A stretch of 25,655 nt of DNA from a virus: positions 1 through 25,655 of IMG/VR virus record IMGVR_UViG_3300034072_001074; one strand, 5' to 3'. The notes beneath the pieces are model-generated. The model had not been told where the DNA came from. It ran no database searches and worked only from the letters and a program-made list of their open reading frames with translations. Made by a program: the position numbers and the translations under genes. Positions 14,240-21,834 of the stretch are shown one piece after another (position 1 is the stretch's first letter; each line of letters starts with the position of its first letter).

Positions 14240-14435
14240 GTTAACGGGCTGGGGCTGGGCGTTAACCTTAACAGATGGAGGAAGTCGTTAACCTTAACGC
14301 CGCGTTAACCTTAACGAAGTGGCGGACTTTGTTAACCTTAACGAACCGTTAACACTAACGAAGTCGTTAACCTTAACGGATCGGCCGATTTCGTTAACCT
14401 TACCCGGCCGGCGCGGTTTCGCGCGCGTTAACCAT
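14240..14435. repeat. TTAAC cluster, GTTAACCTTAAC orientation
   Basis: GTTAACCTTAAC starts at 14261, 14287, 14304, 14331 and 14365, with variants at 14348 and 14393, a half-site at 14240 and GTTAACCATT at 14427. The 17-bp steps (14287 to 14304, 14331 to 14348) place two TTAA words in the form TTAA-N7-TTAAC, which is the published CtrA box. The other steps are 26-28 bp. No gene lies here. Confidence 0.85.
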
Positions 14436-14989: not shown

Positions 14990-15481
14990 GGATTCAGCTT
15001 TCTCGACATTACGAGGCCAAGTCACTGATTTATCACGCGATTTTTTCTAATATTCCACTCTCCATGTTCTGTGACTTTACTCGGTAGCGGATCGGCCGGC
15101 CGGCGAGGGGTCAAGGGGACGATCTGGGGCGCTGGGCGTGATGCCGGCATGGGTCGTCGATCGCTTCCTGATGGGTCTCAGGGCGATTTGTGGAGGAGGC
15201 TGGAGGATGTGATGGAGGGTAGAGTGGGGCGTGATGCCCGGAAATCGTGGAGAAATGGGTGGAGGGAGTGATGGAAAATCGAAATCCAACACCCCGGCCT
15301 ATGTCCTGACGGGGAGGGTCCCAGAGGTCTGGAGAAAAGGGTCCCCGGCCCTTGCTCTGAGGGGGAGGGTCCCCTAGTCTGTGTCGTGGGGACCGTCGGC
15401 CGGATGTCGTTCGTCGGGGTCCCCCTGATCGGCGGGACGGTGCGGATGCAGGCGGACGAACGAGCGCATGGCAGACCTTTC

Positions 15482-15601
15482 GTTAAGGTTAACGCGGGGA
15501 GGGGATTTGTTAAGGTTAACGGATCGGAAGATTTCGTTAAGGTTAACGCGGTCGGCATTTCTGTTAAGGTTAACGCCGGGAGCGATTTCGTTAAGGTTAA
15601 C
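15482..15601. repeat. TTAAC cluster, GTTAAGGTTAAC orientation, exact 27-bp period
   Basis: Five perfect GTTAAGGTTAAC copies start at 15482, 15509, 15536, 15563 and 15590, each 27 bp apart, with 15-bp spacers of unrelated sequence. The orientation is opposite to the cluster at 14240-14435, so the two face each other across about 1 kb. Confidence 0.9.
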
Positions 15602-15744: not shown

Positions 15745-15779
15745 GATGACCGGCTCAGCGGTGGCCAGCGCCGGTCATC
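15745..15779 (-). terminator. Stem-loop at the end of the terminase operon
   Basis: Ten-bp perfect stem GATGACCGGC (15745-15754) / GCCGGTCATC (15770-15779), overlapping the last codons of terL. It lacks a good U-tract, so termination may be partial. Confidence 0.45.
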
Positions 15780-17518
15780 TTCTTCGTTCCGCGCCGGCCC
15801 TTCTGCCGCGCCCATTTCAGATATTGCGAGGTGGCGTCCACTTGGTCGTCATTCTTGCCGTTGGGGAAGGCCACGAGTTCCTTCTCATAATCAGCAAGCC
15901 ACTTGGCGCTTTCCGGCAGGTAGACCTGACCGGCCTCGAACATCGGAGTCACTTCGTCGAAACGGAACGACTTGCTCGCGGTGCCGACTTCGATCGGGAT
16001 CAGCGACGTGGGAGCGCCACCGTTCGCCTTCAACTGGCAATAGGCCAGACCGTTGCCCTTGGCTTCGACCAGCAGGGCGTCGGCGTCGTAGCGCTTCACC
16101 ACGCGGGCGATCTCGGACGACAGTTCGACCAGTTCCATACGCTTGCGGATCACGTCCACCAGATAATGGTTCCGGTTGAGGTCTTCGATCCAGACCGTGA
16201 TGACGGTGAAGTCGCTGCGCTCCTTGTCCGTGTTCGCGGCGTCAACCGAAACCACGGTGCGCCGAATCTGGTTCGGCGTCCCCTTCTCAGGATCGGCCTT
16301 CGTCGGTGGGTGGGTGTAGCGCTGGAACCACTCAGCATCGACCGCGCCGCCGCTCACGTCCATAGGCGTGCCCTGATACAGCGAGTTCCATGACGCCGAG
16401 GTCATATCGCTTCTGAGGTTTTCCAATGCGTCGAGGTCGTAAACCTCTGGCCACAGTGCTTCGCCCGACGCCCGGCCTAGAATATCATTGTCTTCTTCGG
16501 CGATGGCCGGAAGATTAATAATTTCAAACCGGAATTTTTTGCGTTTTCCCTCTTTTTCCTCAAGAGAATCAATGAGTTGGTCCGCAAAATCTTTTTCTAT
16601 TTTTTCTTGCTCTTCCCTTTTTTCCCGTTCTTCGCGATCGGAGATGCGTCCGCAGAGGTCATCAGAGTGCCAGCGGGTCATAATGATGCCCAGCGGAGAA
16701 CCCGGAAGAAGGCGCGTGGAGAAGTCGTCTGAATACCATTTGAACGCGGTGTCGCGGATCGTCGGGCTTTCAGCGTCCTTGCGGCTCTTGTAAGGATCGT
16801 CCACCATACCATAGTGACCACGGAAGCCGGAGATGCCCTGACCGACGCCTTTGCCGACATATTTGCCCTTGCCGTTGGTCAAGGCCCAATAGTCCATGGC
16901 GCGCATGTCGTGCTTGATCTTCACATCGGGGAAGACGCGCTGGTAATCCTCGGACGCGATGATCTGGCGGACGGTCGCGCCGATTTCCTTGGCGACGAAG
17001 TCCTGAGAGTGACCGGCTTGGAGGAACTTCTGCTTCGAGCCTACCTTGCCGAACCACCACGCCGGGAAGTGGTGCGACGAGTGCGTGGATTTGCAATGCC
17101 CCGGCGGCATCGACAGCATGAAGCGCATGGTCTCCTTGGAAGCGGAGGACATGAGCAAGTCGCCGATGAGTTTCTGATGCGGCGACATGGTGTAACCATT
17201 CTCGCGCTGCATGAACTCGTAGAAATCGTGGTAGCTCTCGCGCGCCAGTTCGATCCAAACATCTTCCAGTTCGGCCTCGGCGAAGTCGATCGTCGTATCG
17301 AGCGTGGTTAGCTGCGTGTCGAGATCGTCGGACTGACTAAGCGTCCGAAGTGCTTGGTAGTCGTGGGGCGAGAGGGTTGTCTGCTTGCGGACTGCTTCCT
17401 CCACTCGCGTCTGCAAGGACTTGAGTGACTTGACCGATGAGTGCAAGCGTGTTTTGCGGTCCCGCTTGCTTTCCGCTAGTTGCATCTGCTTGTGCTTTCT
17501 CGAACATTTTGAGGGCAT
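15755..17518 (-). CDS. terL: Phage terminase large subunit (587 aa)
   Basis: The DNA-packaging motor: the N-terminal ATPase drives translocation and the C-terminal nuclease cuts the concatemer. A Walker A variant SMPPGHCKST lies at residues 136-145, Walker B YGMVDDP at 236-242 and a coupling-type TRWHSDDL at 281-288. The RNase H-like nuclease has SVDAANT (Asp426), VEAKGNG (Glu485) and NDDQVDA (Asp557/558/561). Residues 294-330 are a Lys/Glu-rich insert encoded by AT-rich DNA. The start is uncertain: ATG 17518 or 17485, both inside terS. It is the last gene of the minus-strand operon. Confidence 0.95.
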   Translation of the reverse strand: MPSKCSRKHKQMQLAESKRDRKTRLHSSVKSLKSLQTRVEEAVRKQTTLSPHDYQALRTLSQSDDLDTQLTTLDTTIDFAEAELEDVWIELARESYHDFYEFMQRENGYTMSPHQKLIGDLLMSSASKETMRFMLSMPPGHCKSTHSSHHFPAWWFGKVGSKQKFLQAGHSQDFVAKEIGATVRQIIASEDYQRVFPDVKIKHDMRAMDYWALTNGKGKYVGKGVGQGISGFRGHYGMVDDPYKSRKDAESPTIRDTAFKWYSDDFSTRLLPGSPLGIIMTRWHSDDLCGRISDREEREKREEQEKIEKDFADQLIDSLEEKEGKRKKFRFEIINLPAIAEEDNDILGRASGEALWPEVYDLDALENLRSDMTSASWNSLYQGTPMDVSGGAVDAEWFQRYTHPPTKADPEKGTPNQIRRTVVSVDAANTDKERSDFTVITVWIEDLNRNHYLVDVIRKRMELVELSSEIARVVKRYDADALLVEAKGNGLAYCQLKANGGAPTSLIPIEVGTASKSFRFDEVTPMFEAGQVYLPESAKWLADYEKELVAFPNGKNDDQVDATSQYLKWARQKGRRGTKKMTGAGHR

Positions 17519-19741: not shown

Positions 19742-19770
19742 TGATAGGGAACTCCGTGGCTTGTGGGGTT

Positions 19771-19799
19771 ATGTTCAGCCAGAAGCTACCCATTGTCAA
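19771..19799 (-). promoter_or_regulatory. Promoter of the terminase operon
   Basis: -35 TTGACA (19794-19799), 17-bp spacer, -10 GAACAT (19771-19776). It shares CTTGAC with the array promoters but lacks both GANTC sites and the TTAAC elements, so it is probably expressed on a different schedule. Confidence 0.65.
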
Positions 19800-19870
19800 G
19801 TGAGAATGTCGGTCGGTAGGGTTTGAAAAAGTTTCGGAAAAATTTAATAAAACGTGTTCGGCTGCTAACC

Positions 19871-20030
19871 CCCGGTGAGCCGGGCGTTCTTCCGGGAGGT
19901 TCCCTACTATATTATATATTTATATATTTTTAATAATAAAGTATATAACCAAGAACCTTCGCATAGGGCCTCCCACCGGTCTGGATGGGGCGACTAGGGC
20001 CTACCTAATTCATGGCTGGATCAGGAGAAT
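19871..20030. other. AT-only tract in the divergent intergenic region
   Basis: After a small hairpin CCCGG-TGAG-CCGGG (19871-19884), about 40 bp (roughly 19910-19951) are almost purely A and T in an otherwise GC-rich genome. Such a tract could serve for DNA unwinding or as a binding site for an AT-hook protein. No gene is seen from 19800 to 20402. Confidence 0.6.
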
Positions 20031-20112
20031 GTTTCCGCGTTTTTCTGGGAGGTCTAATTAGATACTCCTGTGTAGGTCTGAAACCCGCAGAAATCAGCCG
20101 TTTCTTGTTCTC

Positions 20113-20277
20113 CATCACGCATTCACGCGCTTTTAATTAAGCCCGGCATCACGCCCAAATCAACAAAACCCACCCCGGCATCACGCCCATCACGCCATAC
20201 CGACACCTCATCATCACGCCTCCTCGGCATCATGCTCATCACGCCATCACGAGCATCACGTCATCACGGCCATCACG
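20113..20277. repeat. Array of ten CATCACG repeats
   Basis: CATCACG starts at 20113, 20147, 20179, 20188, 20212, 20237, 20245, 20254, 20262 and 20271. The last five are 8-9 bp apart, less than one helical turn. Related words (CATTCACG, CATCATG) fill gaps. All copies point the same way. Together with the AT-only tract this resembles an iteron-type origin. Confidence 0.8.
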
Positions 20278-20402
20278 TCATAATGACACCAAATATCCCG
20301 ACAAAATGTCCAATAAAAAATAAAAAGACATCCTCCCGACGCCGAAACCCTTGGAAATCCGTCGCTTTCACCCTCCACCACTTTTTCAAACATTTTGCGT
20401 CG

Positions 20403-20431
20403 TTGACAATTCTCCCATGACAGTGCATATC
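20403..20431 (+). promoter_or_regulatory. Promoter of the AT-hook gene
   Basis: -35 TTGACA (20403-20408), 17-bp spacer, -10 CATATC (20426-20431). Six bases later is the ATG at 20438, so a transcript would start at or next to the start codon. Confidence 0.6.
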
Positions 20432-20437
20432 GTGAGA

Positions 20438-21796
20438 ATGACCAGTGATGCTACCCACAATGACCGTCAGCCCGATTCGGCGCGTGATGGTGCCCCCGAC
20501 ATCCCATTCACCAGCCGCTCCGGCGCGCTGCCCAACGAGCGCGTGATGATCACCACGGGCATCTTCTATGTGATGGAGCACGACGGCCCCATCCGCTATT
20601 GGATTCACGCTCGCACCTATAACAAGCGCCCGGTCGCTGGCGGCCCCAAGCGCGTTCGCGGCTTCAACGAGTATGAGAAGGCCGTCCGCTTCATGCGCCG
20701 GGCGACCAAGGACGCGATCACCGCCGATCCCACGATCCGTAAATGGCTGGTCAGCTACGACGGGGTCGAGGCCAACAATGCCGCCGGCATCCAGAACTTA
20801 GACCCTGTCACCCCTCGCAAGCGCGGCCGGCCGCCGGGCAGCAAGAATGCACCCAAGCCGCAAAAGCCGGGACCGAAGCCCAAGCCCCTTGAACCGAAGA
20901 AGCGCGGACCCAAGCCGAAGCCCAAGCCGGAAGAGGCCCCACCACTGCCCGAACGCCCGCCGGTGCCGCTGGCCGCGCTGGCTGACCGCTTCCGCATCGA
21001 GCCGGACCTCTCCAACCCGATCGCACAGGTATGGCGCTGCATCTCGAACACGGCATCCATGCGAGGCCGCCGGGCGCGCTCCGGTAACAACCAGAAGGGC
21101 GATCTCCCGCACCTGATGGGGAGCTACCTCATCACGCACTACGACCGGGGCGTCTATGTGGCGGCCTGCGACGAGGAAGGTATGCCCTATATCTACCCGA
21201 CGTGGATCGACGCGGAACGGGAGGCCGAGTTCTATTACGAGCAAGCGCCAGCACCCAAGCTGCCGAAGGAAGGCGTCGCCCACTACCGGGTCGAGCATGT
21301 GGAAGTCCACCTGACGCCAGCCGTTCACGACGGCCGGCCCTATTCTCTGTTCGACACGAAGGTGAACGCATATGTGCGCGACGGGCAGGGATTCAAGACC
21401 TTCACCCGCCTCGACAATGCGAAAACAGCCGCAGACGCCTATGCCGATCTCGAACCCTTCTCGGTGCGGCTGGCCCGCGCGCTGATCGAAACGCCGCAGG
21501 AGAAGGAGCATCGCGAGCGCCGCGAGGAACTGGAAGCGATCGAAGCGGCCCGCATCCAAGAGGAACGCGATCGCCTCTATGAAGAGGAAATGGCCGACCT
21601 CGCACGCCGCCGGGCCAACGCGCCAGAGCGCCGGTTCCTGACGCCGGAAGAGATCGCGATCGAGAAGGCCAAGCGCGTGCAGATCATCAACCCGACGCCG
21701 GAGCAGAAGCTCGCCGCCCGCCGGGCCAAATATGTGCGCCGGTCCTATTCGGATCGGGAAGCGCGCGTCCACCGGCAGGCGGCGTCTGATTCGTAG
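20438..21796 (+). CDS. AT-hook DNA-binding protein (452 aa)
   Basis: Two AT-hook-like segments, PRKRGRPPGSKN (about 126-137) and PKKRGPKPKPKP (about 153-164), sit in a long Pro/Lys linker (about 125-175). An N-terminal domain (GIFYVMEHDGPIRYWIHART) precedes them. A middle domain with MGSYLITHYDRGVYVAACDE and a charged coiled coil (about 352-395) follow. It may bind the minor groove of AT-rich DNA, such as the nearby tract. Start choice: no ribosome-binding site fits ATG 20417 or 20438; 20438 fits a leaderless transcript. The product is not a family I can name. Confidence 0.8.
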   Translation: MTSDATHNDRQPDSARDGAPDIPFTSRSGALPNERVMITTGIFYVMEHDGPIRYWIHARTYNKRPVAGGPKRVRGFNEYEKAVRFMRRATKDAITADPTIRKWLVSYDGVEANNAAGIQNLDPVTPRKRGRPPGSKNAPKPQKPGPKPKPLEPKKRGPKPKPKPEEAPPLPERPPVPLAALADRFRIEPDLSNPIAQVWRCISNTASMRGRRARSGNNQKGDLPHLMGSYLITHYDRGVYVAACDEEGMPYIYPTWIDAEREAEFYYEQAPAPKLPKEGVAHYRVEHVEVHLTPAVHDGRPYSLFDTKVNAYVRDGQGFKTFTRLDNAKTAADAYADLEPFSVRLARALIETPQEKEHRERREELEAIEAARIQEERDRLYEEEMADLARRRANAPERRFLTPEEIAIEKAKRVQIINPTPEQKLAARRAKYVRRSYSDREARVHRQAASDS

Positions 21797-21805
21797 AATA
21801 AGTGG

Positions 21806-21834
21806 TTGACCGAATCGCATCACGCGGTTATGTC
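21806..21834 (+). promoter_or_regulatory. Plus-strand copy of the array promoter
   Basis: AATAAGTGGTTGACCGAATC repeats the array core on the other strand: -35 TTGACC (21806-21811), GAATC abutting, 17-bp spacer containing CATCACG, -10 TATGTC (21829-21834). TTAAC elements are absent. Confidence 0.8.

Follow-up and report, generated by a model that had tools for sequence, protein, structure and literature searches.

Between two divergent operons of a viral contig lies a noncoding gap, 19742-20416, in which ten same-facing CATCACG words stand about 165 bp to the right of a tract composed almost wholly of A and T. This is the anatomy of an iteron-plus-unwinding-element control locus, and as such it is real and conserved. 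Of the explanations considered, a protein-initiated replication origin, or its core, accounts best for the gap, and we regard the chances that it is correct as evenly balanced; the function of the locus is one that we infer throughout. Directly established are the anatomy, its conservation, its extremity within the genome and its pairing with a neighbouring gene at 12 of 13 loci. In the mechanism we propose, a phage protein would bind the same-facing array, the AT tract to the left of the array would be melted, and replication would start at the opened tract once the phage primase-helicase and Pol I replisome had loaded on it. Candidate binders of the array are the product of the neighbouring gene (the neighbour protein) and a PrimPol-SF3 helicase. 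A further, probable role of the array is an influence on the rightward promoter next to it; many phages and plasmids combine the functions of origin and operator.

The window, that is, the whole stretch of DNA analysed, is a viral contig of 25,655 nt (IMGVR_UViG_3300034072_001074, positions 1-25,655) whose ends are not known. Its terminase large subunit (terL) shares 76% identity with the subunit from Erythrobacter phage XM05, 72% with the one from Sphingobium phage Lacusarx, 66% with Erythrobacter phage EliS-L02 (L02) and 54% with Citromicrobium phage RXM. By sequence comparison the window is a phage contig related to XM05 and Lacusarx, and these four phages are phiCbK-like siphophages; the family is one of long-headed phages from marine habitats and wastewater. 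The closest relative is a 151-kb contig (G001, carrying locus L004), with 80% identity in the neighbour protein and 98% in the terminase. Lacusarx and RXM have terminal repeats of ~10.5-11 kb that adjoin terL (PMC5648845, PMC8953757). The relevant features of the window are:

15138-15273, minus strand: second CATCAC group, looser and four words strong, downstream of terL where genes are sparse
15755-17518, minus strand: terL, which fixes the phage family
19400-19741, minus strand: opening gene of the terminase operon, which runs leftward; no assigned function
19742-20416, no strand: divergent noncoding gap holding the whole locus (ORF map and translations; same gap at 12 related loci)
19794-19799, minus strand: TTGACA, a candidate -35 element for leftward transcription of the terminase operon (read directly; TGTCAA block conserved in alignment)
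19821-19832, plus strand: left arm of a 12-bp perfect inverted repeat (arms 547 bp apart)
19908-19947, no strand: AT tract, candidate DNA unwinding element, 39 of 40 positions A or T
20113-20277, plus strand: ten-word CATCACG array (counts, shuffles and an ~8-bp lattice across phages)
20380-20391, plus strand: right arm of the 12-bp inverted repeat
20403-20408, plus strand: TTGACA, possible -35 of a rightward promoter (read directly; counterpart in XM05 and L022)
20417-21796, plus strand: gene of the neighbour protein, which may bind the array or the tract (12 of the 13 arrays have a homologue next to them)

The initial annotation had described a nearly all-A/T tract of ~40 bp and ten same-facing CATCACG words, five of them 8-9 bp apart, located between divergent operons, and this description is accurate. 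Operons leave the gap on both sides, the terminase operon running leftward from 19741 and a rightward operon beginning with the ORF at 20417-21796. The words start at 20113, 20147, 20179, 20188, 20212, 20237, 20245, 20254, 20262 and 20271, all on the plus strand, with five of the nine spacings equal to 8 or 9 bp, and the row is extended by degenerate words that were read directly (CATCATG at 20229, CATAATG at 20279). Shuffles of the gap gave a mean of 0.09 CATCACG words and a maximum of 2 (2000 shuffles) against the ten observed, and the window as a whole contains 22 matches where shuffling predicts 4.2. A coding repeat was considered and rejected, since the 8- and 9-bp spacings disrupt every reading frame. 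Within the AT tract, 33 consecutive bases (19908-19940) are exclusively A or T, compared with a longest A/T run of 23 in 500 shuffles of the gap. Positions 19900-19959 are 100% identical to L004, whereas much of the flanking gap is only 30-80% identical in places. The 12-bp inverted repeat could be a chance occurrence. An Rfam scan of 14.5-21 kb of the window returned no match, and the promoter scan called no promoter at the leftward TTGACA.

The tract-plus-array plan was present at 13 of 13 loci examined in this phage group (window, L004, XM05, L012, L017, L013, L022, L044, L050, Lacusarx, L02, L020 and RXM); the loci are related, and so do not amount to 13 independent events. At every one of them the AT tract (34-39 of 40 positions) lies on the terminase side, and 5-10 CATCAC words occupy one strand and point away from terL. 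The final base of the word is variable, being mostly G, with CATCACT in RXM. In XM05 the locus falls at 102.1-102.5 kb and in Lacusarx at 115.2-115.6 kb. Both parts expected of an iteron origin are thus found, tandem same-facing short words in a noncoding gap and an easily melted AT-rich element beside them, the distance from tract to first word being 110-231 bp at 12 loci and 399 bp in RXM. The distance of 110-231 bp seems longer than in well-known iteron origins. Pooled over the phages, neighbouring words are 7-9, 13-17, 22-27 or 30-34 bp apart. Spacings beyond the tandem class fit a lattice of ~8 bp (period 8.3-8.5 bp, p 0.0002; p 0.002 without close relatives), the p values being approximate because the null was uniform spacing and the phages are related. 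This period differs from the 10.5-bp helical turn, and would fit either growth of the array by duplication of a unit or a reader for which the words need not share a helix face.

The locus is also extreme within individual genomes. In the four complete genomes (XM05, Lacusarx, L02 and RXM) and in the 151-kb contig G001, the AT tract is the lowest-GC 40-mer, with 3, 3, 4, 5 and 1 G+C, respectively, where the next lowest 40-mers have 10, 9, 9, 12 and 9; the lowest-GC 400-mer of each lies at the locus as well. By nearest-neighbour energies the tract is the least stable 50-mer of the four complete genomes and of the window (z 5.4-6.3, runners-up 3.9-4.7). The densest cluster of CATCACG falls at the locus in XM05 and G001, as does that of CATCAC in Lacusarx, L02 and RXM, with a small lead over the second CATCAC group in Lacusarx (7 vs 6) and L02 (5 vs 3). 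The proposal of an iteron-plus-AT origin in the initial annotation is thus strengthened by conservation at every locus, by the lowest-GC tract in every genome tested and by the densest word cluster; the support is partial: the skew test as worded adds none, and the word is not private to the array.

That skew test had placed the minimum of cumulative GC skew at the origin, which is an accessory sign of iteron origins and not a requirement. The minimum lies elsewhere, and the locus coincides with the maximum, both in the four complete genomes and when G001 is mapped as a circle. Whichever way the genes face, four-fold sites of the sense strands are C-rich (negative skew), and no consistent replichore term emerges (differences of +0.01, +0.03, +0.09 and +0.02, of which only that of L02 is significant, from a mechanical ORF set that may include false genes; -0.06, p 0.10, for hand-listed XM05 genes). 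The skew extreme therefore marks a switch of coding strand and neither supports nor refutes an origin, and GC skew was dropped as an origin test.

Homologues of the neighbour protein adjoin 12 of the 13 arrays, and none was found away from arrays in the collections scanned. The exception is RXM, whose gene at the equivalent position has no similarity to it. The protein had no match above cut-off in Pfam, PHROG or NCBIfam, and a scan of bacterial genomes with one homologue as query returned no relative. In the window it contains an AT-hook-like stretch, KRGRPPGSK, and several relatives have KRGRPP-like stretches, all below the Pfam cut-off. An AlphaFold model of a homologue (mean pLDDT 69) predicts three beta-rich modules, each closed by a helix; the prediction for the window protein itself was poor (pLDDT 48). 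Foldseek with the homologue model gave no PDB match below E 0.2. The best realigned structures, at Z 5.2 and below, included PARP WGR DNA-binding domains over the middle module, a likeness too weak to use. The start codon of the gene usually falls within CGTGATG, the reverse complement of the array word, the first ATG in the window being an exception, and an autoregulated initiator might show this pattern.

As to the initiator gene that the initial annotation suggested looking for, Pfam, PHROG and NCBIfam placed no recognised initiator family beside the array above cut-off, and the structural matches of the neighbour protein were weak. Also counting against an origin are the remoteness of most replication genes from the locus, the lack of the neighbour protein in RXM and the occurrence of CATCAC groups at the heads of structural operons. 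Nor is a DnaA-type origin indicated, as the gap contains no DnaA box (TTATNCACA) within one mismatch.

Among the closest known systems are two phage or satellite origins. In Bacillus phage SPP1, oriL and oriR carry direct repeats that are bound by the phage origin-binding protein gp38 and lie beside an AT-rich unwinding element, and oriR occupies one of the longest intergenic regions (PMC6316719). The present locus shares the direct repeats and the AT-rich element, but has 7-nt words on an 8-bp lattice and a tract 110-231 bp away; no relative of gp38 was detected among the scanned neighbours of the array. The origin of PLE, a Vibrio cholerae satellite, has three semi-palindromic iterons of ~30 bp and the RepA_N protein RepA (PMC7145576, PMC8263062). 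It too is a noncoding iteron region, and the DNA-binding domain of its initiator covaries with the iterons, much as the repeats at the equivalent locus here change between phage lineages; unlike the PLE iterons, the present words are short, same-facing and non-palindromic. In RXM, the one phage without the neighbour protein, a 25-bp repeat, GATTTCTCTCCTGCGGGCAATCGAT, occurs five times in the interval that separates the AT tract from the CATCACT words (L036 13959-14093). The equivalent gap is also repeat-rich, with other words, in more distant phages, as in the case of these 25-mers and of CTTGGACTC in Microcystis phage Mwe-JY26, and in phiCbK and DSS3P8 the gaps upstream of the terminase are AT-rich or repetitive and contain no CATCACG array.

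Transcription control alone is the main rival to an origin, and we hold it to be a serious, if lesser, possibility. CATCACG would then be recognised by a regulator, of phage or host origin, that switches operons (in this case the rightward one), and the role of the AT tract would be that of an upstream promoter element or of a nucleoid-protein site. The gap does separate divergent operons, and the neighbour gene has a start codon that overlaps with CGTGATG. Directly past the array, XM05 and L022 have a good sigma70-like promoter, TTGACA-N17-TATACG/TATACC, at the position equivalent to window 20403-20408; the window copy is weaker, with a weak -10, and was missed by the promoter scan. The word is mildly over-represented genome-wide (95 vs 79 under a maximal-order Markov model, XM05). 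Smaller, sense-oriented CATCAC groups, mixed with GGGACCC repeats, lie upstream of the PhoH/structural operon in XM05 (76961-77054, minus), Lacusarx (17-178, plus), L02 (508-550, plus) and RXM (103.95-104.15 kb, minus), and another occurs at 15.1-15.3 kb in the window, so that the word recurs at several operon heads in a fixed orientation, as in an operator array. Together with the promoter past the array, these groups suggest that CATCACG may be a general phage control site, and because the word is not private to the array, transcription control remains a serious rival. Against this, the other groups are smaller (3-6 words) and have neither a tight lattice nor an extreme AT tract, a single promoter needs no genome-wide least stable DNA, and the conserved tract sits towards the other operon, at a distance of 160-230 bp from the array. 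The suggestion in the initial annotation that one factor may link several sites is upheld in part: single words do exist at 15137 and 15230 (minus strand) and at 21818 (plus strand), and the groups at structural-operon heads in four genomes and at 15.1-15.3 kb favour it, but the lone word at 21818 does not rise above background (~4-7 chance matches per window).

Terminal repeats of phiCbK-like phages carry clusters of CtrA sites (PMC9437464). These resemble the array in coming from the same phage group and in being repeated sites for a host or phage factor in large gaps, but the array words lack TTAA-N7-TTAA, lie outside the terminal repeat and do not make a CtrA array. Two facing clusters of GTTAACC / TTAACCTTAAC were seen in the window (14261-14433, plus; 15482-15601, minus), one on each side of the gene-poor region that lies downstream of terL, close to where the long terminal repeat probably has its edge, and similar clusters occur in XM05, L02, Lacusarx and G001. 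By comparison with the published clusters (PMC9437464), they may be CtrA-related sites.

An origin might also work without a separate double-strand-binding initiator, the array serving as a strand-specific battery of start sites for the PrimPol-SF3 helicase; we think this unlikely. All four complete array-bearing genomes encode this protein of ~1000 residues (53-70% identical), as does the contig of the nearest relative (77%). It has the PrimPol-type motifs GVDLDSG and TTHSH (read by eye) and an SF3-type helicase domain (DUF5906), and a PDB search matched it to the primase of phage NrS-1, over the C-terminal region of the NrS-1 enzyme. In Mwe-JY26 a PrimPol relative (38%) directly adjoins the gap upstream of the terminase operon, in which the repeat of that phage is short and occurs in both orientations. 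This adjacency, with the presence of the protein in all four complete genomes, makes it the second candidate partner of the locus. The AT tract would open, the enzyme would recognise the single-stranded CGTGATG repeats of the bottom strand, with one GTG per unit, and DNA synthesis would begin at the recognised words. Such a mechanism, if true, would explain why the words all face one way, why their spacings are independent of the 10.5-bp helical turn and why words are present in RXM, where the neighbour protein is absent. The NrS-1 polymerase needs an 8-nt recognition word, and ORF904 of plasmid pRN1 starts primers at GTG (PMC7102993, PMC4234260); the relatives likewise encode a PrimPol-SF3 fusion, and the bottom strand of each array word is CGTGATG. 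However, the word of NrS-1 is present in just two copies and pRN1 uses a stem-loop, and the pairing of PrimPol with CATCACG is putative.

That the locus is a packaging start, whether a terminase recognition site or the end of a terminal repeat, is very improbable. In favour of this reading, the terminase operon is always the next one downstream of the locus on that side, and direct repeats are frequent binding sites of terminase small subunits. The published boundaries fall elsewhere: in RXM the terminal repeat comprises the first 10,992 bp, with its end inside terL (PMC8953757), ~3.1 kb from the RXM array, so that array and genome end do not coincide; the left boundary of phiCbK is likewise inside terL (PMC3556154), and the double-coverage region of Lacusarx was placed downstream of terL (PMC5648845). 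Least probable of all, partition (centromere-like) repeats of a carrier-state phage would be in keeping with same-facing short repeats next to a possible DNA-binding protein gene and with an XM05 gene annotated as ParB-like at 114.6 kb, but no ParA, ParM or TubZ match, and hence no adjacent ATPase or GTPase gene, was found among the window proteins scanned beside the array, and the AT tract would be left unexplained.

The genome papers of Lacusarx, EliS-L02, RXM and phiCbK do not describe the locus as an origin, and in the literature found no origin is described for the Lacusarx/phiCbK-like long-headed phages, of which phiCbK is a classical model; subscription journals were mostly outside this search, and an earlier description is possible. 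A conserved and precisely bounded candidate, with a word, a tract, a partner gene and a PrimPol, makes both origin and initiator directly testable. Should the locus prove regulatory, CATCACG would still be identified as a phage-wide control word in these genomes.

Two further observations concern the neighbourhood of the locus in relatives. In phiCbK, a long and exceptionally AT-rich noncoding stretch (L038 19680-19920) lies directly upstream of the terminase operon in a region of 67% GC; it adjoins gp311, a gene without a Pfam match, and is a candidate equivalent locus. In EliS-L02, GGACAATTTGTCC-like dyads (GGAC-N5-GTCC; L026 8140-8260) adjoin the array and are possibly operators of another regulator.
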